Source: Acidaminococcus hominis (lineage in GTDB: Bacteria > Bacillota > Negativicutes > Acidaminococcales > Acidaminococcaceae). Taken from it: a stretch of 64,000 nucleotides of DNA. This document shows, piece by piece, positions 1-12,239 of this stretch (positions are counted from its first letter, which is position 1; each line of letters starts with the position of its first letter). A model generated the notes under the pieces. It worked only from the letters and a program-made list of their open reading frames with translations. It was not told where the DNA came from and did no database searches. Both the position numbers and the translations under genes were made by a program. Location: assembly GCF_900291475.1 (NCBI RefSeq), contig NZ_OLMM01000004.1, positions 322,028 to 386,027 on the forward strand, given 5' to 3'.

Positions 1-83
1 ACACTTTCTACTTCAGCAAAAGCGGGCAGGGCCATCCCCAGACACAGGGTCATAGCAGCCGCCAGGACAGCTTTTTTCAGCAT
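1..83 (-). CDS. N-terminal fragment of an exported protein (cut by window edge)
   Basis: Reading leftward from an ATG at 83, the frame stays open to the edge and encodes MLKKAVLAAAMTLCLGMALP followed by AFAEVES. This is a standard Sec signal peptide (Lys-rich start, hydrophobic core, A-F-A cleavage site). A GGAAGGAG ribosome site lies 9 nt upstream of this ATG; a second in-frame ATG at 89 is only 3 nt from it, so 83 is preferred. The mature protein is outside the window, so function cannot be assigned. It lies downstream of trmO on the same strand, separated by a terminator-like hairpin. Confidence 0.6.
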   Translation of the reverse strand, partial: MLKKAVLAAAMTLCLGMALPAFAEVES

Positions 84-177
84 TTGCATACGCTCCTTCC
101 AAATTTGGTTTCATTATGTAATCATACTACAAAAATCAGGATTGGTGCAAGAGAATTTATCGATACTGTAAAATGAA

Positions 178-207
178 AAGGACCCCCGGCACTTTCCGAA
201 GGTCCTT
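178..207 (-). terminator. Rho-independent terminator-like hairpin after trmO
   Basis: AAGGACC (178-184) pairs with GGTCCTT (201-207). On the minus strand the stem is followed by TTTTCATTTT, giving a plausible terminator for the trmO transcript. Confidence 0.5.
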
Positions 208-211
208 CTGC

Positions 212-261
212 TTATTCTTCCAATTTTTCAACCCAGAGGGTATTTCCGTCCACTCGGAACT
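212..261 (-). other. Out-of-frame C-terminal tail of TrmO
   Basis: Immediately past the trmO stop, another frame reads NVKFRVDGNTLWVEKLEE and ends with TAA at 212-214. This resembles the final strand segment of TrmO proteins (pattern DVxFxV...), which the in-frame product lacks. Restoring one base in the ACCGGTGGAAT stretch (about 266-277) would give ...LTGWNVKF... in one continuous frame. It therefore looks like the severed tail of the preceding gene rather than a separate peptide gene. Confidence 0.55.
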
Positions 262-888
262 TCACATTCCACCGGTCAGACCGTAGACCCGCTCCGGGTC
301 CTTTTGGTAATGGGGCCGGGGATCCTGGGCCAGGACGCCCCGGAGGGCTTCCTGCTGGGTCTGGGGCAGGGCTTCCAGAAGGCCCTGGGGATCTTCCACG
401 GTAAGCTGGGCATCCGCTGCCGGAGCAAAGCCGCTGCGAGCTTCCGGCCGGGCGTCAGCGTAGGGCACGTAGGGCTTGAGATCGTAGATGGGGGTGCCAT
501 CCAGCAAATCTGCCCCCGCCACCCAGATTTCCGGACCCTGGGGACCCTCCAGCCGGATTTCCCTAATTTCCACAAGAGAAAGCCCTAACGGGTTGGGCCG
601 AAAAGGCGACCGGGTGGCAAAGACCCCCAGCCGGGTATTGCCGCCCAGCCGGGGCGGCCGCACCGTAGGGGACCAGGTATGGTTCTTGGAAAAGCCCCAA
701 AGCAGCCATAGGTGGGAAAAGCCTTCCAGCCCCCGGAGGGCCTCCGGCCTGCGGAACCCCTCAGCCATAATAATCTTGCCGGCAAGCTGGGGTACCAGCC
801 CGCTTTGCCGGGGCAGGCCAAATTTTTCCTTCAGGTCCCCCTGGTACCAGGCCACCGGGTGCAGGGTCAATTCCCCTGTTTCGCTCAT
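262..888 (-). CDS. trmO: tRNA (adenine(37)-N6)-methyltransferase TrmO, C-terminus frameshifted
   Basis: TrmO (YaeB/TsaA family) uses SAM to N6-methylate t6A37 in threonine tRNAs. The 208-residue product shows the family signatures: GFSHLWLLWGF near residues 55-66, RSPFRPNPLGLSLVEI near 94-109 and DGTPIYDLKPYVPYAD near 130-145. The start is set by AAGGAGG six bases before the ATG. The protein ends abruptly at ...VYGLTGGM, while the expected last strand is encoded in another frame just downstream (212-275). A one-base deletion or sequencing error near 266-277 is likely. The catalytic beta-barrel core appears intact. The gene follows the SYLF-domain gene by 11 nt and probably shares its transcript. 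Confidence 0.85.
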   Translation of the reverse strand: MSETGELTLHPVAWYQGDLKEKFGLPRQSGLVPQLAGKIIMAEGFRRPEALRGLEGFSHLWLLWGFSKNHTWSPTVRPPRLGGNTRLGVFATRSPFRPNPLGLSLVEIREIRLEGPQGPEIWVAGADLLDGTPIYDLKPYVPYADARPEARSGFAPAADAQLTVEDPQGLLEALPQTQQEALRGVLAQDPRPHYQKDPERVYGLTGGM

Positions 889-899
889 AGGGCGCCTCC

Positions 900-1499
900 T
901 TAAAGATTATTGGGCTCGGTGAGCTTTTTATCCACGGTGAACCGGGTGCCGTTGATGCCCAGTTCGGCTGCCAGGCCTTTGGTGCTGACCCGGTACATCC
1001 ACATGCCGGGGGCTACCTGGAAAGCGCCTTCCAGGGAATCCCCGTGCACACCGTCCCGAGCTGCGGCCGCAGCCTGTCCGCCGAAGGTCCAGCCCTTCTT
1101 CACAAAGGAATCAAAGGCTTCCGGGGTATCAAAGACAAAGATGATGTTGGACTGGAGTACACCCACCCCCAAGCCCACCTTCATCTGGCTCATTTTCATA
1201 AAGACTTCCCGTTTGCTGTGCTGGTTGATGGCCCGGCCCCGGCCGTGACCACCGCCCAACAGGCCCAGATTGTAGCTGGTATCCACAAACACGGCGTATC
1301 CATAGGAATGCTGGATGGCTTCCCGGGATTTGGGCTGCTTTTCGTAGAGCTGGAGCAGAGCCTTATACGTTTTGGTTCTCAGCTCCGCCCGTTCACTGGC
1401 CAGGTCACTGGCACTGGGCGCCGCCAAAGCGGAGGCTGCCGGCAGGCAGACCAAAAGCGCCATGATGACACAAAGGAAAATCCTGCTGAGTTTTTTCAT
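900..1499 (-). CDS. Exported SYLF (Ysc84-type) lipid-binding domain protein
   Basis: A 199-residue protein with a signal peptide (MKKLSRIFLCVIMALLVCLP, cleavage near ALA-AP). The mature part fits the SYLF/Ysc84 domain: HSYGYAVFVDTSYNLGLLGG is followed by GHGRGRAI, then GLGVGVLQSNIIFVFDTPEA. Eukaryotic and some bacterial SYLF domains bind phosphoinositides or other lipids; the bacterial role is not settled. A Sec-exported form fits the periplasm or outer envelope of a diderm. GAGGACATC precedes the ATG. It lies between trmO and a larger exported beta-helix protein, 48 nt from the latter. Confidence 0.75.
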   Translation of the reverse strand: MKKLSRIFLCVIMALLVCLPAASALAAPSASDLASERAELRTKTYKALLQLYEKQPKSREAIQHSYGYAVFVDTSYNLGLLGGGHGRGRAINQHSKREVFMKMSQMKVGLGVGVLQSNIIFVFDTPEAFDSFVKKGWTFGGQAAAAARDGVHGDSLEGAFQVAPGMWMYRVSTKGLAAELGINGTRFTVDKKLTEPNNL

Positions 1500-1547
1500 G
1501 ATGTCCTCTTTTCTTCCGGACCCGGTCCGGAGGCCTGAATCTCAGGC

Positions 1548-2948
1548 TTATTTCACCGGCTTCAGATAGCCGCCGTTTTGCAGTTCGTAGGTCTTGCCGC
1601 CCAGGGCTGCATTGGCTGCATCGGCTGCGTCGTAATAAACGGTGAAGCCGTTGCCCTTAATGTTGGCCAGGGTGGTGTCCGCATCCTTGAGAGAAGTAAT
1701 GTAGCTGGTACCGGCCACCTGCCAGGAAGAAGAAGCGTCCAATTGGACGTCCACCCGTTTGGCCGTCTGGCTCCGGTTGATGGCGCCGGAATAGTGGCTG
1801 CCGTTTTGCAGATCCAATACCAGGGTGCTGGCATTATCCACAGAGATGTTGCCAAACAGAGCCTGCTGGTTGGCCATAAAGGTCAGGTCTGCTCCGTTGG
1901 ACCCTTCCGTCCCCCACTGGCCGGCGGAAACCTTGATCAGTTCCCCGCCCAGGTATTGGAGGGTGTTCAGTTCGGAATAGATCCGGGCCTGGGTATTGGT
2001 CACGTAGAACAGGGGGCCAGTTTTCAGGCTGCGCAGGGCAGAATTTTTCACGGACAGCCGGGTGGGATTGGCCCCATCAGCCCGGACCCCGTTCTGGTAC
2101 AGCAGAATGCCGTGGGTGCCGGAACCGGACACGTCCACGTATTCCAGCCGGGCAATATTGCCGCCTTCCACTACCGCAATCTGGCTGGCTGCGGCAGCGC
2201 CCTTGGCCTCAGCCAGGGTAATGTCCCCTTTGGAGTACACCAGGGGCGAGGCCTGGCCGCTGGTATTTACGGTGCTCTTGCTGACGTTCAGCACGGCCCC
2301 TGCCGGCTCGGTGGCAAGAGCAGCGGACCGGAGGCCCGTGGTGCCAATATTGATGTTGTCTGCAGTAATGCTGGCGCCTTTTACGGCATCCAGGCCCCGA
2401 GAATTTATCCCCGTGGTACGGATATTGGAATCATGAATCTTGATGACGCCTTTGGGCCCAGCCGCAAATACGGCGTTGGCGCCGTCCGCTTCCGTCCGGA
2501 TGGTGCAGCCGTCCAGGGCCAGGGTGGCATCTGCAGCCAGGACCCCGGCGTTTTGGCCGTTAAACTTGCTGCCCCGGACACTGGTGGTATTCCCGGTTTT
2601 GTTTAGGGCGCCGTGGGACAGGGTAACGTCTGCGCCGTTTTTCACCAGCACAATATTTTCATCGTTTTTCAAGGCAGCGTAACTGTCCGCCAGGGTGACT
2701 TTCTCCCCGGAAACCATTTTGGCTGCCGTAAATTCTACCAGGTCCAAAGGGGCGTCGGGCATGGGAACGGAAGCATTGCCGTAAACGGTGGTTTCGTCCT
2801 CAGCGGCCTCTGTGCTGCCAGTAGTCATTGTATCGGTCTGGGCAGCGGCCGTTTCTGCGGCTGCGGGAGTGGGTTCTGCGGCCCAGGCACAGGGGCTGGA
2901 AAGCAGGGCTGCCAGGATGGCCAAGCTCAATATTTTCGTCTTTTGCAT
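1548..2948 (-). CDS. Exported beta-helix (autotransporter-passenger-like) protein
   Basis: A 466-residue protein with a clear signal peptide (MQKTKILSLAILAALLSSPC, cleavage near WA-AEP) and a Thr/Ala/Glu-rich linker. About 380 residues of short strand-like repeats follow, with polar turns (LALDGCTIRTEADGANAVFA, KIHDSNIRTTGINSRGLDAV), typical of a right-handed beta-helix. The last 100 residues (SSSWQVAGTSYITSLKDADT then NIKGNGFTVYY) resemble the tail of autotransporter passengers. No C-terminal outer-membrane barrel follows, so it is either a stand-alone passenger-like protein or one secreted by a partner. Ligand unknown. A near-perfect palindrome lies upstream (2981-2998). Confidence 0.65.
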   Translation of the reverse strand: MQKTKILSLAILAALLSSPCAWAAEPTPAAAETAAAQTDTMTTGSTEAAEDETTVYGNASVPMPDAPLDLVEFTAAKMVSGEKVTLADSYAALKNDENIVLVKNGADVTLSHGALNKTGNTTSVRGSKFNGQNAGVLAADATLALDGCTIRTEADGANAVFAAGPKGVIKIHDSNIRTTGINSRGLDAVKGASITADNINIGTTGLRSAALATEPAGAVLNVSKSTVNTSGQASPLVYSKGDITLAEAKGAAAASQIAVVEGGNIARLEYVDVSGSGTHGILLYQNGVRADGANPTRLSVKNSALRSLKTGPLFYVTNTQARIYSELNTLQYLGGELIKVSAGQWGTEGSNGADLTFMANQQALFGNISVDNASTLVLDLQNGSHYSGAINRSQTAKRVDVQLDASSSWQVAGTSYITSLKDADTTLANIKGNGFTVYYDAADAANAALGGKTYELQNGGYLKPVK

Positions 2949-2980
2949 GAGTATCCCTTCTTTATCTTAGAATTGTACTA

Positions 2981-2998
2981 TTTTAGTATATACCAAAA
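2981..2998. promoter_or_regulatory. 18-bp near-palindrome upstream of the beta-helix gene
   Basis: TTTTAGTATATACCAAAA matches its own reverse complement at all but one base pair. It lies 33-50 bp upstream of the ATG of the beta-helix protein, just upstream of a TACAAT -10-like hexamer on the minus strand. A repressor or activator operator is likely; the regulator is unknown. Confidence 0.4.
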
Positions 2999-3013
2999 CG
3001 GTCCGGGACGCAA

Positions 3014-3050
3014 AAAACGGTTCCGCCCTTTGAGAAAGCAAAACCGTTTT
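3014..3050 (-). terminator. Terminator of the acyl-CoA ligase / bioY operon
   Basis: AAAACGGTT (3014-3022) pairs with AACCGTTTT (3042-3050), and a T-run follows on the minus strand. It sits about 30 nt past the ligase stop codon. Confidence 0.65.
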
Positions 3051-3080
3051 CGTAACGTCTTTTCAGTTATTTTGCATTTT

Positions 3081-4418
3081 TTAAAGGCTCTTACGGCTAT
3101 TTTGAACCAAAGCCTGAAGCTTTTGGCTGAGCTTCCTGCTGTCCACCTTGCCGGCTCCCGTTAGGGGCAGGGCGTCCAGTTCCAGCCAATAGCCGGGGAT
3201 TTCGCCAGGCAGCAGCAGGTCTTTCAGCTTTTTTCGCAGCTGCCCCAGGGTAATTCCCTGAAGAATAACGCAGGCTCCCAGGTCCTCTCCCCGGGCTGCC
3301 TCCTCTACGGGCAGCACCACTGCGTCGGCTACCCCGGCAACCGAAAGAATCGCCTGCTCCACATGGGTGCAGGATAGGGTCAGGCCGCCCTTGTTGATTA
3401 CCCGGCCGTCCCGGCCCAAAAAAGTCAGGTAGCCGTCCGCATCAAAATAGCCCCGGTCCTCCAAAGTAAAGGGGCAGGTCACCCCTTCCACATGGTAAGG
3501 GGTATCCACGTAGATTTTCCCGTCCAAAACGGAAACCTTCACCCCCGGACAGGGGCGCCCTACGCTCAGGGGGTGCTGCTGGAGTTCTTCGTAGGTGAGC
3601 CAGGTAATATAGTTCAGCTCGCTGGCTCCGTAGTACAGGTAAATCTGGCTGTGGGGAAAATGGGTCTTCAGCTGATCCGCTGTTTCCGGCGCCAAAAGCT
3701 GGGACCCGGCCATAATGGCCGTTACCGAGGGGTATTGCCCCTGGGCCGCCCGCAGCAGCAGCTTCAGCTTCACCGGCACCAGGTACAAGAGGGTCACCTG
3801 GAACTGGCCAATTTCCCGGAGCCAGGTGCGGCTGTAAAGGGTATCCGACAGCACCAGGGACGCTCCTGCATACAGCAGGGAAGCCCAGACGCTGAGGTTT
3901 CCCGTAAAGCTCATGCTGCCTTCCGTAAAGCCTACAGTATTCCCAGTTACCTGGAACTTTTTGTTCTGCTCAGTAAAAAAGCCGGCCCAGCTTGCGTAGC
4001 GCCGGAACATCAGCTTGGGCAGGCCGGTGGAGCCGGAACTCAGGACGCCCATGCACACCGGCTCAGGCTGGGGGTCCCCCTGGGGGGCAAATTGGACCTT
4101 TTCTCCCAAAAGATCCCCGTAGGGAATGTTTCTCCTGACCATAAATTCCCGGGCAGCAGCAGGCTTTAAATCTGGATGGGCCAAAACGGGTACGCAGCCC
4201 GCCTTTTCCGCTCCCAGAAAGCAAATCAGCTGCTCCAGGGCCGTTTTCCGCAGGATCAGCAGGGGCCGGTGTTCCGGTTGGAAAGCCGCCAGGGTTCTGG
4301 CATAGTCTTTCGCCCGCTCCAAAATCTCCTGATACGTATAACTGGCCTTTGCCGTAATCAGAAAGGGGCGCTCCGGCTGGACCGCCGCCCATTGTTCCAA
4401 AAGACCCAGATAATCCAT
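3081..4418 (-). CDS. Acyl-CoA ligase (class I adenylate-forming), bioY-linked
   Basis: AMP-forming CoA ligase, 445 residues from the ATG at 4418, which has AAGGAGG about 5 nt upstream; an in-frame start at 4478 would lie inside the thiolase gene. The P-loop-like motif SSGSTGLPK is near residues 127-135, the hinge motif LGRDGRVINKGG near 330-345, and the C-terminal catalytic lysine context TGAGKVDSRKL near 420. It is shorter than typical fatty-acyl ligases, close to o-succinylbenzoate-CoA ligase size. No menaquinone genes are nearby. It follows the thiolase by 10 nt in an operon with bioY, recalling Bacillus yhfT beside yhfS and yhfU. The acid substrate is unknown; a dicarboxylate or biotin-pathway acid is possible. 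Confidence 0.8.
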   Translation of the reverse strand: MDYLGLLEQWAAVQPERPFLITAKASYTYQEILERAKDYARTLAAFQPEHRPLLILRKTALEQLICFLGAEKAGCVPVLAHPDLKPAAAREFMVRRNIPYGDLLGEKVQFAPQGDPQPEPVCMGVLSSGSTGLPKLMFRRYASWAGFFTEQNKKFQVTGNTVGFTEGSMSFTGNLSVWASLLYAGASLVLSDTLYSRTWLREIGQFQVTLLYLVPVKLKLLLRAAQGQYPSVTAIMAGSQLLAPETADQLKTHFPHSQIYLYYGASELNYITWLTYEELQQHPLSVGRPCPGVKVSVLDGKIYVDTPYHVEGVTCPFTLEDRGYFDADGYLTFLGRDGRVINKGGLTLSCTHVEQAILSVAGVADAVVLPVEEAARGEDLGACVILQGITLGQLRKKLKDLLLPGEIPGYWLELDALPLTGAGKVDSRKLSQKLQALVQNSRKSL

Positions 4419-4428
4419 AGTTTCCTCC

Positions 4429-5625
4429 TTAGACCCTGCGCAGCAGCAGGCCGGATCCGGTGCCCCCGGCGCCGGCAATGGCGCACAGGCCCCAAATGCC
4501 CCCCGTTTCTTTCAGCCGGGCCAGGGCGTGGAGTACCAAAACAGCCCCGCTGGCCCCGTAGGGATGCCCATAGGCCAAGGCCCCGCCCAGGGGCAGGTAT
4601 CGGTCCAGGCAGCCGGGATATTTCCGGGCAAACAGGGCGCTGATTACCCCAAAGGCTTCATTATATTCAAAGGTATCAATGGCTTCAGGCCCAAGGCCGC
4701 TGCGCTGCAGCAGCTTGTCCCCCACAGCGAGGGCTCCCAAAGGGCTGAACCGGGGGTTCACGCCGGCTTCTGCGGCGTCCGCCACTTCCGCTAGCATTTC
4801 CGGGGCTTTGCCCTCCTGCTGCCACTGGCGGACTTTCCTTTCCGAGGCCAGCAGCACAAAGGCCGCCCCATCCTGGTGCAGGCAAGCGTTGGCTGCGGTC
4901 AGGGTGGGAGCAACGGTCCCGCACTGGGCCCGTTCTTCCGGGGTCAGCAGGGCTTCCGTTTCTTCCTGGGTAAACAGGGTGGGCATCCGGGCCGCCAGTT
5001 TGGCGGACATACGAGGACGGATGCTTTCGTCCCGGGTACTGCCAAAAAGGCTGGCAATATAGGGAGCCACCACCGACCCCGCGGCTGCCGCCTTTTGGTG
5101 GCTGCGCACCGGCCAACGGTCCAGCTCCTCCCTGGTAACCCCGTACACCTGGGCCGTCCGTTCTGCGCCCTCCAGCATCACCCGGGGACTATTGGAGTCC
5201 GGGGAAAATTGGGCCGTCTGGAAGCCGTCCGGGGTATATCGGGGATCTGACGGGGCGTAATGGCGCAGAGGCTGCAGGGAGGCCGATTCAAAGCCCCCGC
5301 AGAGCACTACGTCTGCCAGGCCGCTGCGCACCTTGGCAAAGCCCAAAGACAGGGCAGCCGCTCCGGAGGCGCACTGCATATCCAGGGTCAGGCAGGGAAC
5401 TTCCGGCTTTACGCCGGCCAGAAGTGCCGTCAGCCGGGTCAGGTTGCCCCCGGTACCCACCGCATTGCCTCCCAGGATTTCTTCTGCTTCCCGGCTCAGG
5501 GGATAACGCCGAAAAAGGGCCTGCAGCAAGGCAGCCCCTAATTTTTCCGGTGAAACCGTTTTAAATATGCCATTTTCTGCACCCAGGTGGCTGCGCAGGC
5601 CACCCAGGATATATACCCGCTCCAT
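4429..5625 (-). CDS. Thiolase-family acetyl-CoA acyltransferase
   Basis: A 398-residue thiolase. The nucleophilic cysteine is in MQCASGAAAL (about Cys85), followed by the FEYNEAFG motif, the catalytic histidine in GGALAYGHPYGASGA, and the C-terminal CAIAGAGGTGSG loop, so all catalytic parts are present. It could cleave or condense 3-ketoacyl-CoA. It starts 1 nt after the bioY stop and is followed 10 nt later by the CoA ligase. This arrangement matches the yhfS-yhfT-yhfU-type biotin-regulon clusters of other Firmicutes. Whether it acts in fatty acid salvage or in making a pimeloyl-like CoA ester is not decided by sequence. Confidence 0.85.
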   Translation of the reverse strand: MERVYILGGLRSHLGAENGIFKTVSPEKLGAALLQALFRRYPLSREAEEILGGNAVGTGGNLTRLTALLAGVKPEVPCLTLDMQCASGAAALSLGFAKVRSGLADVVLCGGFESASLQPLRHYAPSDPRYTPDGFQTAQFSPDSNSPRVMLEGAERTAQVYGVTREELDRWPVRSHQKAAAAGSVVAPYIASLFGSTRDESIRPRMSAKLAARMPTLFTQEETEALLTPEERAQCGTVAPTLTAANACLHQDGAAFVLLASERKVRQWQQEGKAPEMLAEVADAAEAGVNPRFSPLGALAVGDKLLQRSGLGPEAIDTFEYNEAFGVISALFARKYPGCLDRYLPLGGALAYGHPYGASGAVLVLHALARLKETGGIWGLCAIAGAGGTGSGLLLRRV

Positions 5626-5626
5626 G

Positions 5627-6211
5627 TTAAAACACGTACCGCTGGAGCCGGGAAGCCAGGAAGGCTGCCAGCACCACTTTCAGCACGTCTCCGATCAGGA
5701 AGGGGAAAACGGCCATAACCAGGGTCTTCCACAGACCCACCTTGGCTACCAGGTACATACTGATGCAGCCGCCGGCGTAGATGATGGGCATACCCACCAA
5801 AACCCCCAAAGCCACCAATTTGCCAAAGGACCATTTCCGGCCGCCCCGAATGGCGCTCATGGCCACTACGGCTGCCAAAAAGCCCAGGTTAAAGCCTCCG
5901 GTAGGTCCAAAAATCTTGGCCATGCCGCTGGTACCGCCTACAAAGACGGGGACCCCCACCATGCCCAGCAGCAAGTAGATGCCAAGAATTACTGCGGCCT
6001 GTTTAGGGGTTTTCAGGAACCCCACCAGATTCACCATAATGGTCAGGGCCGTCACCATGGCCGGGGTAAAAGGCAAGGGAAAAGAAATGTAGGCCGATAC
6101 GGCCAGCAGTGCCACGCAGACGGCGCTGGTGGTCAGGGCCCGGGTGGAACTGAGATGGCTGCCCTGGGTTCCCCGGGCAGAATGTAAAGTTTGATTGATT
6201 TCGCTGCTCAT
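5627..6211 (-). CDS. bioY: Biotin ECF transporter substrate-binding protein BioY
   Basis: A 194-residue integral membrane protein with about six hydrophobic segments and the BioY signature GVPVFVGGTSGMAKIFGPTG followed by GFNLGF. BioY is the biotin-binding S component that works alone or with a shared ECF energizing module; no ecfA/T genes are visible here. The start at 6211 is set by GGAGGAGGAGCAAC before the ATG. The preceding MaoC-like frame runs into this gene, and in another frame a TGA overlaps this ATG as ATGA. The next gene (thiolase) begins 1 nt after the stop. Confidence 0.9.
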   Translation of the reverse strand: MSSEINQTLHSARGTQGSHLSSTRALTTSAVCVALLAVSAYISFPLPFTPAMVTALTIMVNLVGFLKTPKQAAVILGIYLLLGMVGVPVFVGGTSGMAKIFGPTGGFNLGFLAAVVAMSAIRGGRKWSFGKLVALGVLVGMPIIYAGGCISMYLVAKVGLWKTLVMAVFPFLIGDVLKVVLAAFLASRLQRYVF

Positions 6212-6728
6212 GTTGCTCCTCCTCCAAATAAATCCCCTCCCCGGCATGCACCGGTTCCTGGAAAATAACTTCCATACGGCTGGGTTCTCCCAGCTTGCTA
6301 AATAGTTCCTGCCATAAGAGCAGGCCCTGGACCACAGGACGCTCCGTCAGGTGGATGGCGTTGTCGTCCCCGGTTGCCTGGGAAAAGGCGTACACCTCCT
6401 GGGGCGTAAACGCTTTCCAATATACACCTGGAGGCAAAGCCTCTCTTGAAGCTTCTTTAGGTAAACTATATTCATTATCATTGTTTACCTTCGTTGCCTG
6501 CCAAAACAGCAGTAACTCCAGCTGGCCCACCTGCTGGTGCTGCTCCCAGCCGGTAATCCGCAGCAGTTGGAACCGTTTCCGGTCCTTTACCACTTCTGCC
6601 GTAAACCGGGCAGTGGGTCCCGCCTTAGCCTGACGGCTATAGGCAATTTTTCCGATCAGGCTTCCCTGATACCGCTCTCCCTGAAAAGCCTGGAGCGCCT
6701 TGATGTATCCTGTCATATTTTCATTCAT
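6003..6728 (-). CDS. MaoC-like hotdog protein, C-terminus unclear and overlapping bioY
   Basis: First gene of the bioY operon. Residues about 100-165 carry a MaoC/enoyl-hydratase-like stretch (FSQATGDDNAIHLTERPVVQ, then GLLLWQELF) ending in FQEPVHAGEGIYL; the N-terminal 75 residues look like a degenerate first hotdog. After that the frame does not stop but runs 69 codons through bioY to 6003 with unrelated sequence. The natural end is probably near 6210, where another frame has TGA overlapping the bioY ATG, so a small indel near the G-runs at 6238-6246 or a natural truncation is likely. The last hotdog strands are missing. The start is 6728 or 6716; neither has a clear ribosome site, and 6728 sits almost at the predicted transcription start. 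Confidence 0.5.
   Translation of the reverse strand: MNENMTGYIKALQAFQGERYQGSLIGKIAYSRQAKAGPTARFTAEVVKDRKRFQLLRITGWEQHQQVGQLELLLFWQATKVNNDNEYSLPKEASREALPPGVYWKAFTPQEVYAFSQATGDDNAIHLTERPVVQGLLLWQELFSKLGEPSRMEVIFQEPVHAGEGIYLEEEQHEQRNQSNFTFCPGNPGQPSQFHPGPDHQRRLRGTAGRIGLHFFSLAFYPGHGDGPDHYGESGGVPENP
6459..6490. promoter_or_regulatory. BirA-like palindrome inside the MaoC-like gene
   Basis: AGGTAAAC (6459-6466), 16 nt, then GTTTACCT (6483-6490) form a perfect inverted repeat. In BirA format this is a pair of 9-mers 14 nt apart sharing the GTAAAC/GTTTAC core of the E. coli bio operator. It lies in an unusually AT-rich patch encoding the linker KVNNDNEYSLPKEA between the two hotdog halves. It may be a second, intragenic operator or a coincidence. 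Confidence 0.4.
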
Positions 6729-6737
6729 AGTGCAATT

Positions 6738-6790
6738 AGTGTACCGCTTTTTTCTTTCTTGTTCAATTCTTTTCTTAGAATGGTTAACGT
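6738..6790 (-). promoter_or_regulatory. Promoter of the bioY operon with BirA-like operator
   Basis: On the minus strand, TTGAAC (6761-6766), a 17-nt spacer and TACACT (6738-6743) form a sigma-A-type promoter. Overlapping the -35, the plus strand reads TTGTTCAAT (6759-6767), 14 nt, GGTTAACGT (6782-6790), close to the BirA consensus TTGTTAACC...GGTTAACAA. Biotin-dependent repression is the likely control. Confidence 0.5.
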
Positions 6791-6944
6791 ATTTTGTTAA
6801 ATTTAGGCTAGGATTTGCCACAAAAGGAATTTTTCTCTTACAATTTTACAGATTTCCTACAAATTTGGTTGCACTTCTGTTTCTATAAGCCTATAATTCA
6901 GGTTATACTTATTTTTATTTATTTTTCTTTGGGAGGGATTTTCC

Positions 6945-8216
6945 ATGAGCGCTGCCAAAAGCACTACCCGGTCTGCTCTAGCCAACTACCGGGACCCCAT
7001 TATCCTGATCACCTTCTGTATTATTGGTGCCATCCTGGGACTCTATTTGGGGGACAAGGCTTCTATCCTGAAGCCCATTGGCCAGATTTTCTTGAACTTA
7101 TTGTTTTGTTTGATTGTACCCCTGATTTTCTTCTCCATTGCCGGCTCTATTGCCAACACCAAGGATACGGGCAAGGTAGGGAAAATGATTGGCTACACCC
7201 TGTTGATTTTCATTACCACCGCCATCATTTCCGGTGCACTGATCCTGATTGTCACCCACTTTACCGGGGTGCCCACCACCTTTAACGCCCCCAAAGCCAC
7301 CCAGACGGCCATGAAGACGGTGTCCATCAGTGACCAGATTGTCAATACCCTGACGGTGGGCGACCTGCCGCTGTTGATTTCTCGGTTCCACGTACTGCCC
7401 CTGATCATCCTGACCATTTTCTTCGGCATCTGCGTCTCCATGATTGGCGAACCGGCCAAACCCGTAGTGGAATGGATGAACGCCATGTCCCTGGTATGCT
7501 ACAAGATGGTGGCCATTCTCATGAAAGCCGCTCCCATTGGTCTGGGCGCCTACTTTGCAGACCTGACCGGGACCTACGGCATCGACCTGTTAAAGGCCTA
7601 CGGCAATGCCATGCTGGTGTTCTACTCCGTGGTCATTCTGTACTTCTTCCTGTTCCTGGGGCTGTACGCCTACATTGGCGCCGGCAGCTGGGGGGTCAAG
7701 AACTTCTTCAAGGTCATCCTGGCTCCTGCCCTGACCGCCCTGGGCACCCGTTCCTCCGCCGCCACCATCCCTCTGCAGATGGAAGCCTGCGACAAACTGG
7801 GGGTTCCCCGGGAAATTTCTTCCGTGGTGGTAGCCATGGGTGCTACCTGCCATATGGACGGTGCCTGCATTGCCATCGTGTATTCCGAAGTGCTGGCCAC
7901 CACTCTGTTTGGCACCCCGTTGGCCGGCTTTGACTTTGCTTTGGCCCTGTTCGTGGGCGTAGCCTCCTCCGTAGCCACGTCTTCCGTACCGGGCGGCGGC
8001 GCAGCCGGTGAAACCATGATTGTATCCGTGTTCAACCTGCCGGAAGCAGCCTTCCCCATCCTGTTGATGGTTATCGAACTGTTTGACCCGGGCTGCACGC
8101 TGCTGAACTCCTGCGGCGACACCGTGGTTTCCATGGTCATCAGCCGGATTTTCTACGGGAAAGACTGGTACAAAAAGAACTTGAATGGAAAGGATGTCCT
8201 GGCCTATGAAGATTGA
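6945..8216 (+). CDS. Dicarboxylate/amino acid:cation symporter (DAACS, GltP type)
   Basis: A 423-residue polytopic membrane protein of the glutamate/C4-dicarboxylate symporter family. It shows the re-entrant loop 1 serine-rich motif (LGTRSSAATIPLQME), the cation-site stretch (CHMDGACIAIVY in place of the usual NMDG) and the second loop (SSVPGGGAAGETMIV). It imports glutamate, aspartate or C4-dicarboxylates with Na+ or H+. For an amino-acid-fermenting organism glutamate is a natural substrate, but sequence alone does not decide this. GGGAGGG lies about 9 nt before the ATG. The hydrolase gene downstream overlaps its stop by 11 nt, so the two are cotranscribed. Confidence 0.88.
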   Translation: MSAAKSTTRSALANYRDPIILITFCIIGAILGLYLGDKASILKPIGQIFLNLLFCLIVPLIFFSIAGSIANTKDTGKVGKMIGYTLLIFITTAIISGALILIVTHFTGVPTTFNAPKATQTAMKTVSISDQIVNTLTVGDLPLLISRFHVLPLIILTIFFGICVSMIGEPAKPVVEWMNAMSLVCYKMVAILMKAAPIGLGAYFADLTGTYGIDLLKAYGNAMLVFYSVVILYFFLFLGLYAYIGAGSWGVKNFFKVILAPALTALGTRSSAATIPLQMEACDKLGVPREISSVVVAMGATCHMDGACIAIVYSEVLATTLFGTPLAGFDFALALFVGVASSVATSSVPGGGAAGETMIVSVFNLPEAAFPILLMVIELFDPGCTLLNSCGDTVVSMVISRIFYGKDWYKKNLNGKDVLAYED

Positions 8217-9042
8217 TGCCTCCTATGTACTGCGGGAACCGGAACAGGGCAGCGCGGCCCTGCCGGACTCCCTGGACCTGATGCTCAATATTGGCGGCTC
8301 TCGGGTCCTGGGGGAAATCTATCTGCCCAGCGGGGTCTACGAGGCTCCCCATCCTGCGGTGGTCCTGTGCCACGGAATTCCTGGCACCAACTGCAACGAC
8401 GACCTGGCCCAAAGCCTCCGGCGCATGGGCTGTGTGGTGCTGCGGCTGTACCACCGGGGGGCCTGGGGCAGTGACGGGCTGTATTCCTTCTCCCACTGCC
8501 TGGAAGATGCCCTGTATACGGCCAACTGGGCCCGGGAAGAGGCTCCCAAGGAATACGGCATCGACCCGGACAATATTTTCCTGGCAGGCCACTCCAACGG
8601 CGGCAACACGGTACTGAACGCCGCCCGGCAGCTGCCCTGGATCAAGGGCATTATGGCCTTCTGCCCCTTTGACCATGCAGCCCTCCGGGACCTGCTGCAG
8701 GAAGAAGAAATCAAGGCCCTGTTTACGGAGATTTCCGCCGTACTCCATATTGAGAGCCCGGAAGTCCTGTGGCAGGACAGTTTCTCCCACTATAAGGAGT
8801 GGGGCTTTGCCCAGCTGGCTCCGGAATTCCAGCACCGGAACCTGCTGCTCATTGGCGGCAAGCGGGATACGGTGGCACCTCCGGACAAGATGGTGCTGCC
8901 CCTGTGGAATGCCCTGGAGCAGCTGCCCACCCAAGCTAACCACAAACTGGTACTCCTGGACTCCAACCACTCCCTGGATACCGCCCGGCTGGCCCTGGCC
9001 GAAACCCTGGGCACCTGGCTGGAACAGGTGGTAAAAGGCTAA
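8206..9042 (+). CDS. Alpha/beta hydrolase (dienelactone hydrolase-like)
   Basis: A 278-residue serine hydrolase. The oxyanion region is CHGIPGTNCNDD, the nucleophile elbow GHSNGGN, the acid lies in GGKRDTVAPP and the histidine in DSNHSLD, a complete Ser-Asp-His triad. No signal peptide, so cytoplasmic. The chosen start at 8206 overlaps the symporter stop by 11 nt and has AAAGGA upstream; in-frame ATGs at 8185 and 8194 are less well placed. Overlap with a carboxylate or amino-acid importer suggests it cleaves an ester or amide of an imported compound, but the substrate is unknown. Confidence 0.78.
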   Translation: MKIDASYVLREPEQGSAALPDSLDLMLNIGGSRVLGEIYLPSGVYEAPHPAVVLCHGIPGTNCNDDLAQSLRRMGCVVLRLYHRGAWGSDGLYSFSHCLEDALYTANWAREEAPKEYGIDPDNIFLAGHSNGGNTVLNAARQLPWIKGIMAFCPFDHAALRDLLQEEEIKALFTEISAVLHIESPEVLWQDSFSHYKEWGFAQLAPEFQHRNLLLIGGKRDTVAPPDKMVLPLWNALEQLPTQANHKLVLLDSNHSLDTARLALAETLGTWLEQVVKG

Positions 9043-9056
9043 ACCCTGATGAACCT

Positions 9057-9094
9057 AAAAGCCCTGACTGCAAGCTGTGCAGCCAGGGCTTTTT
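9057..9094 (+). terminator. Terminator after the hydrolase
   Basis: AAAAGCCCTG pairs with CAGGGCTTTTT; the T-run follows on the plus strand, 15 nt past the hydrolase stop. Confidence 0.75.
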
Positions 9095-9111
9095 CATTTG
9101 CAAAGCAAGAC

Positions 9112-9155
9112 AAAATAACCGTTCCCAAAAGCAAGCTTTTGAGAACGGTTATTTT
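9112..9155 (-). terminator. Terminator of the hcp operon (possibly bidirectional)
   Basis: A long stem, AAAATAACCGTTC (9112-9124) with GAACGGTTATTTT (from 9143), enclosing a smaller AAAAGC/GCTTTT hairpin. On the minus strand it ends in a T-rich tail just past the DUF488 stop. A/T runs on both sides allow bidirectional use. Confidence 0.75.
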
Positions 9156-9517
9156 TATAATTGGGTTTCCAGCCAGTGCTTCAGCACCACCGCATTGTTG
9201 TGTTCCTGGTCCTTGGCCCCGTACAGCAGGGTTACATTCCCCTGCTGGAGCAGGTTCCGTACCTTTTCCAGGAATGCCGCTGCGGCAGGATTTGCTGCCA
9301 GCTCTTTCTGGTAGGATTCCGTAAAGGAGGGAAACAGGTCCGGTTCATGGCCAAAGGACTTGCGCAGCTCTGGACTAGGAGCAATTTCCTTCTCCCATTC
9401 CTCCAGCTGGGCCTTGGCTTTGGCAATGCCCCGGGGCCACAGACGGTCCACCAAAATCCGGCAGCCGTCCGTTTCCTCACAAGTTTCGTAAATCCGTTTG
9501 ATCTGGAGATTTCCCAT
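9155..9517 (-). CDS. DUF488 family protein
   Basis: A 120-residue protein with the DUF488 (YeaO-like) signature: IKRIYETCEETDGCRILVDR followed by LWPRGIAKAKAQLEEWEKEI, then an LRKSFGH stretch and FLEKV...TLLYGAKDQEHNNA. Biochemical function is not established. AAGG lies 7 nt before the ATG. It starts 19 nt after the small Cys-rich protein downstream of hcp and ends in a strong terminator, so it is the last gene of the hcp transcript. This suggests, without proving, a role in the same nitrosative or oxidative stress response. Confidence 0.8.
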   Translation of the reverse strand: MGNLQIKRIYETCEETDGCRILVDRLWPRGIAKAKAQLEEWEKEIAPSPELRKSFGHEPDLFPSFTESYQKELAANPAAAAFLEKVRNLLQQGNVTLLYGAKDQEHNNAVVLKHWLETQL

Positions 9518-9536
9518 AGGAAAGCCTTCTATCTGT

Positions 9537-9698
9537 TTATTTCTTGGCCTGTTTTTCTGCCTTCCGGGCCAACTGCTCGCAGGCCGTCAGAGGATACTTC
9601 TTGGAGCTGTGATGGAAAGCGATGCAGGGTTCGCACTGGGCAAACCGGGGACAGGAAGTCCGGGGGCAGGGACAGATACTGGGGTCATATAGGGCCAT
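9537..9698 (-). CDS. 53-residue Cys-rich protein downstream of hcp
   Basis: Starts 1 nt after the hcp stop and encodes MALYDPSICPCPRTSCPRFA, then QCEPCIAFHHSSKKYPLTAC, then EQLARKAEKQAKK. Six cysteines fall in a C-x-C-x4-C-x5-C-x2-C pattern with a later Cys and two adjacent His, suggesting a small zinc or iron-sulfur site, with a basic C-terminal helix. Too short for many gene finders. The tight spacing between hcp and DUF488 makes translation likely. It could be a redox partner, metal chaperone or assembly factor for Hcp; that is inference. Confidence 0.7.
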   Translation of the reverse strand: MALYDPSICPCPRTSCPRFAQCEPCIAFHHSSKKYPLTACEQLARKAEKQAKK

Positions 9699-9699
9699 C

Positions 9700-11337
9700 T
9701 TAGGCGCCGAAGAACAGGTTCATATCGTCTTCCACAGAGCCGATGCCAGCGATGCCGAAGTTCTTCACCAGAACGTTGGCTACGTTGGGGGACAGGAAGG
9801 CAGGCAGGGTGGGTCCCAGATGGATGTTCTTCACACCCAGGTACAGCAGGGCCAGGAGAACGATAACAGCCTTTTGTTCATACCAGGCAATGTTGTACAC
9901 GATGGGCAGCTTGTTCACATCGTCCAGGCCGAAGACTTCCTTCAGTTTCAGGGCAATCAGAGCCAGGGAGTAGGAGTCGTTGCATTGGCCGGCATCCAGT
10001 ACACGGGGAATACCGCCGATGTCACCCAGGTTCAGTTTGTTATATCTGTATTTGGCGCAGCCAGCGGTCAGGATGATGGTATCCTTGGGCAGGGCTTCTG
10101 CAAACTTGGTGTAGTAGTCACGGCTCTTCATGCGGCCATCGCAGCCAGCCATTACCACGAATTTCTTCACAGCGCCGGATTTTACAGCTTCTACTACTTT
10201 GTCAGCCAGGGCAAATACCTGTTCATGAGCAAAGCCGCCAACGATGGTACCATGTTCAATTTCTACAGGAGGTTTGCATTCCTTGGCTTGGGCAATCAGG
10301 GCGCTGAAGTCCTTGTGGCCATTTTCGTCAGCTACAATGTGTTTGCAGCCAGGATAGCCGGCAGCACCGGTGGTCCACAGACGGTCTTTGTAGCTGTCTT
10401 TGGGCGGAACGATGCAGTTGGAGGTCATCAGGATGGGTCCGTTGAAGGTTTCGAATTCTTCTTTTTGTTTCCACCAGGCGTTGCCATAGTTGCCGGCAAA
10501 GTTGGTGTATTTCTTGAAGAACGGATAGTAGTGGGCCGGCAGCATTTCAGAGTGGGTGTATACATCCACGCCGGTGCCTTGGGTCTGATCCAGCAGCATT
10601 TCCAGGTCCTTCAGGTCATGGCCGGAAATCAGGATACCAGGGTTATTGCGTACGCCGATATCCACGGTGGTGATTTCAGGATTGCCGTAAGCACCGGTGT
10701 TGGCACCATCCAGCAGGGCCATGCCTTGTACGCCGTATTTACCGGTTTCCAGGGTCAGGGCAACCAGATCATCCACGGTCAGGCTGTCATCCAGGGTAGC
10801 GGCCAGGGCGCGCTGCAGGAAAGCATCTACTTCGGGGTTATCCTGTACCAGGTTGTTGGCATGTTTGCTGTAGGCAGACAGACCTTTCAGACCATAGGTA
10901 ATCATTTCCCGCAGGGAACGGATGTCTTCGTTTTCGGTGGCCAGTACGCCAACGTTCTTAGCTTTGGCATCAAATTCGCTTTCTTCCCCGTTCCACAGGG
11001 CAGCTTCCGGCAGGCCGGCCTTATCGGTCAATTGACCCAGCAGCTCAGCTTTTACCTGCAAAGTCTTTTTGATTTCAGCAATGATGGCTTCCCGATCGAA
11101 GTTGGCATTGGTGATGGTAATGAACAGGTTAACAGTACACAGGTGGTTTACTTCCCGGCTGACTTCCTTGCCTTCAGCACGCAGTTTGGTGGTGATGGCG
11201 GACAGGCCTTTGGTCACGTAGATCAGCAGGTCCTGCATAGCAGCTACTTCCGGTTTCTTGCCGCATACGCCTACAACCGTGCAGCCTTTGCAGCCGGCAG
11301 TTTCCTGACATTGAAAACAGAACATTTTATTTTCCAT
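9700..11337 (-). CDS. hcp: Hydroxylamine reductase / hybrid-cluster protein Hcp
   Basis: Hcp carries a [4Fe-4S] cluster and a hybrid Fe-S-O cluster. It reduces hydroxylamine and NO in vitro and acts in nitrosative stress. The 545-residue product starts at 11337, where AGGGGAG lies 7 nt upstream. The N-terminal cysteine motif is [20 protein letters not shown] then CGK. Hybrid-cluster ligands occur in the C-terminal half, e.g. the [12 protein letters not shown] and [10 protein letters not shown] stretches. Length is normal for the family. No hcr reductase gene is adjacent; instead a 53-residue Cys-rich protein and a DUF488 protein follow in the same transcript. The leader holds a palindrome at the position of a class II CRP/FNR site. 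Confidence 0.95.
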
Positions 11338-11404
11338 ACTTTTACTCCCCTTTTCTAACAGGTAAAAATGAGATTCTTTGAGGTGTTGTTCGCTCGATGG
11401 TTTT

Positions 11405-11447
11405 ATTATAAAGAAACCCACCTCCTTTGTCCGTTGTTAAAACAACG
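11405..11447 (-). promoter_or_regulatory. hcp promoter with CRP/FNR-like palindrome at about -41.5
   Basis: On the minus strand, CGGACA (11428-11433), 17 nt, TATAAT (11405-11410). The palindrome CGTTGTT-TT-AACAACG (11432-11447), also readable as GTTGT-N4-ACAAC, is centred 41.5 bp upstream of the predicted start. That is the classic spot for a CRP/FNR-family activator such as HcpR-type regulators. Confidence 0.5.
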
Positions 11448-11456
11448 AAAATAAAA

Positions 11457-12239
11457 TTATCCCAAGGAAACGTCCAAAATCATCATCACCGTGAAACCCA
11501 GGGCAAAGGTCAGCACCCCAATATTGGAATGCTCCCCTTCGGACATTTCCGGAATCAGTTCTTCCACCACCACGTACAGCATGGCCCCTGCCGCAAAGCT
11601 GAGGAAATACGGCAGCAGCCGGACAATGTACTGGGAGGCCCAGATGGTAAACACCGCCGCAATCGGTTCTACCACCCCGGACAGGACCCCGCCGACAAAA
11701 GCCTTGTGGTGTCCCAACCCTGCTGCCCGCAGCGGCAGGGAAATAATGGCTCCTTCGGGGAAATTCTGAATGGCAATCCCCAGGGACAGGGCAATGGCAC
11801 TGCCCAGGGTAATGGTCCCCGGGTCATTCAAAAAGCCGGCATAAATCATGCCCACGGCCATACCTTCCGGAATATTATGGAGGGTCACGGCCAAAATCAT
11901 CATGGTGGTCCGGGCCAAATGGCTTTTGGGCCCTTCCGCCTTTTGGGCGTTGAGATGCAGGTGGGGAATCAGGGTATCCAGCAGCAGCAGGAACAACGTC
12001 CCCACCCAGAACCCTACAGCCGCTGGAATAAAGGCCAGACGCCCCAGGGCAGCGGATTCCTCCAGGGCAGGAATCAAAAGGCTCCAAATGGACGCCGCCA
12101 CCATAACCCCGGCGGCAAAGCCCGTCAGCCCCCGCTGGAGCTGCCGGTTCAGCTGGTCCTTCATAAAGTACACACAGGCAGCCCCCAGGGATGTGCCTAA
12201 AAAGGGAATTAGGATTCCCTTCCAAATTTCAGAATTCAT
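11457..12239 (-). CDS. ZIP-family metal transporter (ZupT-like)
   Basis: A 260-residue protein with eight hydrophobic segments and ZIP motifs: HNIPEGMAVG in helix 4, FPEGAIISLPLR in helix 5, and HKAFVGGVLSGVVEPIAA. The loop between helices 3 and 4 has a short HLHLN histidine cluster. It likely imports zinc, iron or manganese. GAGAGGAG precedes the ATG. It lies 30 nt after the exported 214-residue protein and may be the last gene of the nucleoside-phosphorylase operon. Metal specificity cannot be read from sequence. Confidence 0.85.
   Translation of the reverse strand: MNSEIWKGILIPFLGTSLGAACVYFMKDQLNRQLQRGLTGFAAGVMVAASIWSLLIPALEESAALGRLAFIPAAVGFWVGTLFLLLLDTLIPHLHLNAQKAEGPKSHLARTTMMILAVTLHNIPEGMAVGMIYAGFLNDPGTITLGSAIALSLGIAIQNFPEGAIISLPLRAAGLGHHKAFVGGVLSGVVEPIAAVFTIWASQYIVRLLPYFLSFAAGAMLYVVVEELIPEMSEGEHSNIGVLTFALGFTVMMILDVSLG

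Follow-up and report, generated by a model that had tools for sequence, protein, structure and literature searches.

A probable four-gene operon of Acidaminococcus combines BioY with an altered thiolase-like enzyme and may salvage a biotin-like acid

Four genes of an Acidaminococcus genome, encoding a MaoC-like protein, BioY, a thiolase-like protein and an acyl-CoA ligase, lie head to tail on the minus strand at 3081-6728 of the window, the whole 64 kb stretch of DNA that we analysed (Table 1). Tentatively, and with a little less than even confidence, we read them as a BirA-repressed operon that salvages a biotin-like acid by rebuilding its side chain rather than making biotin de novo.

Gene layout and relation to known systems

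The gene order on a single strand was as the preliminary description had given it. Gaps of 1 nt between the bioY and thiolase genes and 10 nt between the thiolase and ligase genes, together with a MaoC-like frame that overlaps bioY, make a single transcript likely and support the operon proposed there. No stop codon closes the MaoC-like frame where its end would be expected, and it continues to 6003, sharing 209 nt with bioY in another frame; overlaps of like kind, with a variable end, were found in nine genomes of the genus and in genome G011. Promoter and terminator scans stayed near shuffle level (promoter-like sites, 2 compared with a shuffle mean of 1.6; terminator-like sites, 8 compared with 6.3), and no riboswitch was matched by Rfam at the gathering threshold within positions 1-12000.

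Table 1 Features of the locus, in window coordinates.
Feature	Position	Strand	Basis
AMP-forming acyl-CoA ligase-like protein, 445 aa	3081..4418	(-)	PF00501 and PF13193 above cut-off
Thiolase-like condensing or acyl-transfer enzyme without second catalytic Cys (A384)	4429..5625	(-)	Thiolase_N 109.7 bits, Thiolase_C 73.5 bits
BioY, substrate-binding (S) component of ECF biotin transporter	5627..6211	(-)	PF02632 110.1 bits, cut-off 25
MaoC-like frame extension, out of frame into bioY	6003..6211	(-)	no stop at expected end
MaoC-like double-hotdog (R)-hydratase/dehydratase-like protein, 172 aa counted up to bioY start	6212..6728	(-)	ATG at 6728
Second candidate BirA operator, at codons 80-90 of MaoC-like gene (within linker 79-96)	6459..6490	(-)	PWM 9.2
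Candidate BirA operator upstream of operon, 30 nt before MaoC-like ATG	6759..6790	(-)	PWM 7.8 and conserved position

BioY is the sole match of its family in this genome, resembles the BioY structure 4dve (E 1.8e-12) and is predicted to import biotin or a vitamer. The ligase scores 115.6 bits against PF00501 (AMP-binding; cut-off 29.9) and conserves the core motif residues. Its best NCBIfam match is PRK07638, and the thiolase-like protein matches PRK06690; we take these to be the YhfT and YhfS families, respectively, and both matches fall well under the equivalog cut-offs (161.3 bits against 518, and 183.9 bits against 498).

As a gene run that unites bioY with genes for a thiolase and an acyl-CoA ligase, the operon is a variation on the known BirA-controlled bioY-yhfT-yhfS kind. 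The accessible text of PMC4016012 reports that BirA binds at and regulates bioWAFDBI, yuiG and yhfUTS in Bacillus subtilis, and the yhfU-yhfT-yhfS genes there (BioY, ligase, thiolase) supply the same three functions behind a BirA operator, which here is a candidate; our locus differs in its added hotdog dehydratase-like gene, its gene order and the second candidate operator inside its first gene. Thiolase and ligase homologues also stand under BirA, as predicted here, in the yhfS-yhfT pair of Staphylococcus aureus, where bioY is a separate transcription unit, the function is likewise unproven and the accessible parts of the sources mention no hotdog partner (PMC6391492, PMC7235819). Among the papers within reach of our literature search, which most subscription papers lay beyond, none assigns the operon a function or names the hotdog partner.

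Conservation and the link to biotin

The four-gene order is identical in all nine Acidaminococcus genomes examined, dozens of other anaerobes share the set, and it spans 28 thiolase lineages, which is more than chance would give. When loci were found by the thiolase alone (the best 80 of 313 confirmed places), the ligase was present in 76, BioY in 57 and the MaoC-like gene in 46, in several gene orders; the company of bioY, whose absence elsewhere the preliminary description would have counted against its proposal, is thus kept outside this genome. A 100-locus set, in which 20 loci (L036-L055) were chosen for BioY beside the thiolase and several duplicate places among the 80, placed BioY in 26 of the 28 lineages. 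Beyond the four genes no neighbour family occurred in more than 4 of the 28 lineages, and neither reductase nor ECF partner genes were recurrent; the reductases discussed below would therefore come from general metabolism.

The genome encodes a BirA with an N-terminal helix-turn-helix (Group II; G000:C18:461-1180, 218 bits; PF08279 HTH_11 at residues 17-70). We scored candidate operators with a position weight matrix built from 43 boxes of genera other than Acidaminococcus. With this outside-genus matrix, the box before bioB was the top match of its region in eight of the nine genus genomes and second in G008, and boxes preceded bioY2-bioD-bioA or bioD in 8/8 loci and bioF in 2/2. The upstream box of the operon has the genus form ACGTTAACC-N13/14-TTGAACAA, and the equivalent place in the other eight genus genomes scores 6.0 to 25.2. 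By score alone the box in this genome is not above background, as another minus-strand site scores 7.9; its support comes from the position conserved over the genus. One of 50 shuffles reaches its score of 7.8. The internal box is the top-scoring site of the window on both strands. It lies at the same codon in this genome (G000) and in G003, G005, G007 and G008, where 28, 321, 0, 61 and 1 of 5000 synonymous shuffles, respectively, equalled the observed score, and is missing from G001, G002, G004 and G006. A weak promoter-like site at 6504-6477 of the minus strand shares part of this box and is only suggestive. We infer that BirA binds at these candidate operators, and predict that the operon is repressed by BirA and switched on when biotin is scarce.

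BirA-type boxes stand ahead of 69 of the 76 BioY-bearing copies in the 100-locus set, in which 3 of the 100 upstream regions were too short to score. No box scoring 10 or more was found in 16 of the 21 loci without BioY, so that some Selenomonadaceae show no visible tie between the enzymes and biotin. Together with the frequency of BioY among loci and lineages, the boxes at bio genes and a locus (L144) with bioB immediately upstream of the thiolase-ligase pair, the boxes at BioY-bearing copies argue for a link to biotin; these boxes and the helix-turn-helix of BirA lend weight to the earlier assignment of the locus to the BirA-controlled yhfU-yhfT-yhfS type.

A link of this kind could also arise if the operon spared biotin rather than supplied it: when biotin, and with it acetyl-CoA carboxylase, runs low, the ligase and the thiolase-like enzyme would activate scavenged fatty acids and hand them to lipid synthesis, and the import gene would merely be co-regulated. 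This would account for the operon being found whether or not a genome has bioB or bioF, and for copies that lack BioY; the accessible text of PMC6391492 uses the phrase 'fatty acid elongation', under BirA control, for yhfS-yhfT in S. aureus. BioY would not be needed, yet it is attached through several gene orders at most of the thiolase-found loci, and the weak matches of the ligase to its nearest named families indicate no fatty-acid specificity. We consider this explanation somewhat unlikely.

Active sites of the thiolase-like enzyme and its hotdog partner

In 101 aligned rows of the thiolase-like family, the nucleophilic cysteine (CXS; Cys85) is kept in 100 with one gap, Asn322 of the NEAF motif in 99 (one Gly, one gap) and His354 of the GHP motif in 99 (two gaps). 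The second catalytic cysteine (CXG), the base, is replaced by Ala in 95 rows and Gly in 4, with two gaps, and hence by Ala or Gly in 99/99 readable copies. Two ordinary thiolases of genome G031 carry LCIGGG at this motif. Asp82, Gln84 and Tyr352 are family-specific and invariant. The operon enzyme thus shares the fold family, the nucleophile and the NEAF and GHP motifs of biosynthetic and degradative thiolases (EC 2.3.1.9 and EC 2.3.1.16), but differs from them in the lost base and in two extra signatures, D-x-Q-C and A-Y-G-H-P. In thiolase the base role belongs to Cys378, according to the accessible text of PMC3406046.

The MaoC-like protein is too diverged to reach the Pfam cut-off (PF01575, 11.7 bits against 27). 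Its family profile matches the R-specific enoyl-CoA hydratase 1iq6 (E 1.4e-8), and the Asp-x4-His catalytic motif of R-hydratases, which aligns with that of 1iq6, is kept in 61 of 62 rows, with one gap. An AlphaFold model (mean pLDDT 86.5) has the hotdog fold and resembles double-hotdog dehydratases, with low confidence in the linker between the two hotdogs. The closest solved structure is HtdX (Rv0241c); relative to HtdX and the MaoC or hydratase-2 double hotdogs, the protein is shorter and about 14% identical. The hydratase-like step earlier proposed as an addition to the operon is thus supported. In a second group of five clusters the partner is FabZ-like rather than MaoC-like. The His of the FabZ motif has a functional role, and it is Gln in four of these five partners.

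The same residues would suit an acyltransferase or thioesterase that does not condense, with the operon adding or removing an acyl group, for example by transferring a CoA-activated vitamer to a carrier or an amine. The half of the active site that forms the acyl-enzyme (Cys85, Asn322 and His354) is intact, the base is gone and Asp82, Gln84 and Tyr352 are invariant, all of which speaks for this reading. We nevertheless regard it as unlikely, since it gives no clear role to a hotdog partner that keeps the R-hydratase Asp and His.

Degradative trimming, in which steps resembling beta-oxidation shorten a homologue or an acyl conjugate of biotin, was suggested by the three activities that the preliminary description assigned to a beta-oxidation turn, and the fold and motifs of ligase, hydratase and thiolase were confirmed for all three. 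Thiolytic cleavage, however, uses the cysteine that every readable copy lacks; hotdogs of the MaoC and FabZ families are R-specific, whereas hydration in beta-oxidation is normally S-specific; and neither acyl-CoA dehydrogenase nor 3-hydroxyacyl-CoA dehydrogenase families recur among the neighbours in the 28 lineages. This makes trimming quite improbable. R-specific partners of both kinds and the lost base instead suggest that the side chain is built up rather than broken down.

Biotin-synthesis genes and a possible salvage route

Our survey covered birA, bioA, bioD, bioB, bioF and bioW. This genome has birA, bioA, bioD and bioB; neither bioF (best match 22 bits) nor bioW was found, and bioF is missing from seven of the nine genus genomes, including two assembled as a single contig. 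The operon is therefore no replacement for bioW in this genome and has no BioF to supply. Of 41 genomes, 23 have the operon-type thiolase, and bioF was present in 11 of these and absent from 12; among the 18 that lack this thiolase, 9 have bioF. The operon shows no visible dependence on bioF. In 39 genomes behind 39 of the 80 loci, picked for long contigs and spread with assembly completeness not given, bioF was missing from 19 of the 27 operon genomes with bioB, and bioB was not above cut-off in 12 of the 39; with the gene set of this genome, these counts argue against a precursor route.

Supply of pimelate or pimeloyl-CoA in place of BioW, BioC/BioH or BioZ would call for just such enzymes (ligase, condensing enzyme and dehydratase), and the accessible text of PMC6593275 counts 74 species with BioF-A-D-B and no known pimeloyl source. 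Such a supply is very improbable given the missing bioF, the coexistence of operon and bioW elsewhere (G009, G018, G020, G024, G026, G033, G037 and G040, among others) and operon genomes with neither bioB nor bioF, such as the isolate [Clostridium] citroniae (G074). For this genome we reject it, barring a BioF-independent KAPA synthase; the CoA-activated precursor that the preliminary description had envisaged was not borne out in the pimeloyl-CoA sense, whereas its other idea, work on the side chain of a biotin-like compound, may still hold. A role for the operon as a BioF-free KAPA maker is also not favoured, because in G014, G031 and G039, which have bioA, bioD and bioB, both bioF and an operon-type thiolase are missing. 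The gene set of this genome is exactly that of the A3-type biotin auxotrophs (BioA-BioD-BioB-BirA, with KAPA salvage; PMC6593275), a source whose accessible text does not mention the thiolase-ligase-hotdog module and whose main text has the term thiolase 0 times.

In the salvage reading the substrate would be a biotin vitamer and the direction constructive. BioY would import a biotin-like acid and the ligase would charge its carboxylate with CoA. The thiolase-like enzyme would then condense on its retained cysteine without a base of the Cys378 type, as decarboxylative condensing enzymes do, after which a household ketoacyl reductase, the R-type hotdog (by dehydration) and a household enoyl reductase would complete an R-type extension cycle. 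The product might be biotin directly, or might enter the BioA-BioD-BioB steps still present in this genome. Against salvage by condensation, use of malonyl-CoA would itself require the biotin enzyme acetyl-CoA carboxylase, and the lost second cysteine could equally mean plain acyl transfer or hydrolysis. We also count against the biotin-salvage reading that the MaoC-like gene is absent from 34 of the 80 thiolase-found loci, that most FabZ-like partners have lost the motif His and that the upstream box scores low here.

A bolder proposal, which we think distinctly unlikely, is that anaerobes living in the gut, rumen and mouth undo the beta-oxidation that biotin undergoes in the host: bisnorbiotin would enter through BioY, be activated by the YhfT-like ligase, gain two carbons from the condensing enzyme without base cysteine and, through the R-type hotdog and household reductases, become biotin without any biotin-synthesis gene, with BirA acting in one Acidaminococcus clade through a second operator in the disordered linker of the first protein.

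Years after it was first recognized, the thiolase-ligase pair under BirA has no proven role. Our data set the pair apart from pimelate supply in this genome, show two kinds of hotdog partner and reveal a consistent active-site loss, and these three results together bring the question of function within reach of assays on purified proteins with a small set of vitamers. If salvage of a biotin with an altered side chain is true, current predictions of vitamin phenotypes leave out one route in the biotin balance between host and gut bacteria.

Organization of the operon and its relatives

The order MaoC-like gene, bioY, thiolase and ligase is common to all nine Acidaminococcus genomes examined. 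The source genome (2,605,487 bases, 99.84% complete) holds the window at G000:C4:322028-386027. The MaoC-like protein scored just 11.7 bits against a Pfam cut-off of 27. Its frame lacks the expected stop and overlaps bioY out of frame by 209 nt, and an overrun of 209 nt or longer was found in all nine genus genomes (loci L036-L044). As the end of this frame varies among species, the extension into bioY is probably unselected. The neighbouring dicarboxylate-symporter-like gene is retained in several genus genomes (also L039, L041 and L043).

Operon features and candidate BirA-type sites (window positions unless a locus is named)
Feature	Position	Strand	Remark
MaoC-like gene	start ATG 6728	minus	first of four operon genes
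bioY	6211-5627	minus	second operon gene; Pfam well over cut-off
Thiolase-like gene	5625-4429	minus	third operon gene; Pfam well over cut-off
Ligase gene	4418-3081	minus	fourth operon gene; Pfam well over cut-off
MaoC-like/bioY overlap	6003-6211		out of frame
Dicarboxylate-symporter-like gene	6945-8216		transcribed away from operon
Upstream candidate site	6759-6790		score 7.8
Unrelated site	19054		score 7.9
Internal box	6459-6490		within MaoC-like coding sequence; window's best score
Box past bioA	L082:10602, L084:5913, L086:2882, L087:10130		strong BirA-type match
bioB beside thiolase-ligase, Clostridiaceae bacterium U.11_7	L144:6914-9176		bioB immediately upstream; bioY on other strand

A thiolase-alignment scan of named genome contigs confirmed 313 places. 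Near the best 80 of these 313 thiolases we found a ligase at 76 loci, BioY at 57 and a MaoC-like gene at 46, so the pairing of bioY with thiolase and ligase noted in the preliminary description extends beyond the source genome. The Acidaminococcus order recurs in Veillonella; Anaerovibrio has BioY-ligase-MaoC-thiolase, Lachnospiraceae have MaoC-thiolase-ligase with an adjoining BioY on the opposite strand, one Spirochaetaceae and one Phascolarctobacterium genome have thiolase-ligase-BioY, and Quinella and other Selenomonadaceae have MaoC-thiolase-ligase without BioY. Clustering 100 loci, 20 of them picked by BioY, at 65% thiolase identity gave 28 lineages, with the ligase in 28, BioY in 26, the MaoC-like gene in 20 and no other neighbour family in more than four. 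In genome G016 (L048 and G016:C49) the thiolase, ligase and bioB genes are each broken, with BioY and the MaoC-like gene apparently intact.

Five clusters without a MaoC-like gene, from other families and orders (G012, G025, G026, G033 and G040), carry a FabZ-like protein after the ligase; of the four scanned for PF07977, three scored above its cut-off. The FabZ-motif His has a role in dehydratase activity, and four of the five proteins have Gln in its place, which makes them less likely to act as ordinary dehydratases. At many loci there is no hotdog partner of either kind (MaoC is absent from 34 of the best 80 of 313).

Predicted control by BirA

A box search seeded with BirA-type half-sites and run on operon upstream regions of other genera yielded 43 boxes with the consensus TTGTTAACC-N13-15-GGTTGACAA. 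Scored by a matrix minus its own box, 69 of 76 loci with BioY reached 10 or more, versus 5 of 21 without (shuffled-sequence medians, -0.3 and -1.7, respectively). With the genus excluded entirely from training, the matrix placed boxes upstream of bioB (the region's top match in eight of nine genomes, second in G008), bioY2-bioD-bioA or bioD (8/8 loci; joint first in the source genome) and bioF (2/2). The source genome's BirA carries an HTH domain. The upstream candidate site scores no better than an unrelated site, and its support is therefore its conserved position and the higher scores in most relatives. Further strong boxes lie just 3' of bioA in G003, G005, G007 and G008, and a third bioY directly follows birA in A. 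fermentans (L090, G007:C7).

The internal box occupies identical codons in G000, G003, G005, G007 and G008; none was found in the MaoC-like gene of the other genus genomes (G001, G002, G004 and G006). Among 5,000 synonymous shuffles per genome using the window's codon usage, 28, 321, 0, 61 and 1, respectively, reached the observed score, in genomes too closely related to be five independent tests. The box encodes MaoC-like residues 80-90, within a stretch (79-96) modelled at pLDDT under 50 and presumably free to vary in sequence. We infer that it works as an operator.

Biotin genes and the proposed role

The source genome has bioB, bioD, bioA and birA, and a genome search found neither bioF nor bioW; this set matches the A3, KAPA-salvage type (BioA-BioD-BioB-BirA) of PMC6593275. 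Across the genus, bioB is present in 9/9 genomes, bioD and bioA in 8/9 each, bioF in 2/9 and bioW in 0/9. The operon-type thiolase occurs in 23 of 41 genomes (the G016 copy is broken and the G028 copy cut by a contig end); with bioF called at 400 bits or more, which takes in three just under the curated cut-off, bioF is missing from 12 of these 23 and found in 9 of the 18 others. For the 39 genomes behind named loci, bioB was over cut-off in 27 and bioF in 7 (one further 2 bits below, one further in pieces); 19 of the 27 bioB-bearing genomes have no bioF. Both genes are missing from the isolate [Clostridium] citroniae (G074), which carries the operon. The operon thus needs neither BioF nor BioB. 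In G018 (L049/L096) and G024 (L051/L097), bioW and bioF matches share a single open frame (633 and 658 aa), which suggests a BioW-BioF fusion; bioF lies in similarly long frames in G063 and G068 (637 and 654 aa).

Bacillus subtilis yhfUTS is a known bioY-ligase-thiolase operon under BirA, of unproven role (PMC4016012); the window's thiolase and ligase fall below the YhfS and YhfT equivalog cut-offs and are not classed as such. The BirA-controlled ligase-thiolase of Staphylococcus aureus, also of unproven role (PMC6391492 and PMC7235819), has bioY apart, whereas in Acidaminococcus it is within the operon. New, as far as the literature was searched, are the two kinds of hotdog partner, the operon thiolase's consistent lack of the base Cys, the internal candidate operator and the separation from bioF.

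The combination of R-type hotdogs with a condensing enzyme that lacks the base for thiolysis suggests that an acyl chain is built rather than degraded; rival readings are trimming of a chain, acyl transfer without C-C bond formation and a supply of fatty acids that would spare biotin. Three features together suggest that the operon salvages a compound with much of biotin already in place: its predicted expression when biotin is scarce, an importer of the biotin family and its lack of dependence on BioF or BioB. For such salvage, biotin with a shortened side chain would be the natural candidate substrate, for example bisnorbiotin, which accounts for 13-23% of the biotin compounds found in human urine (PMC9106636).
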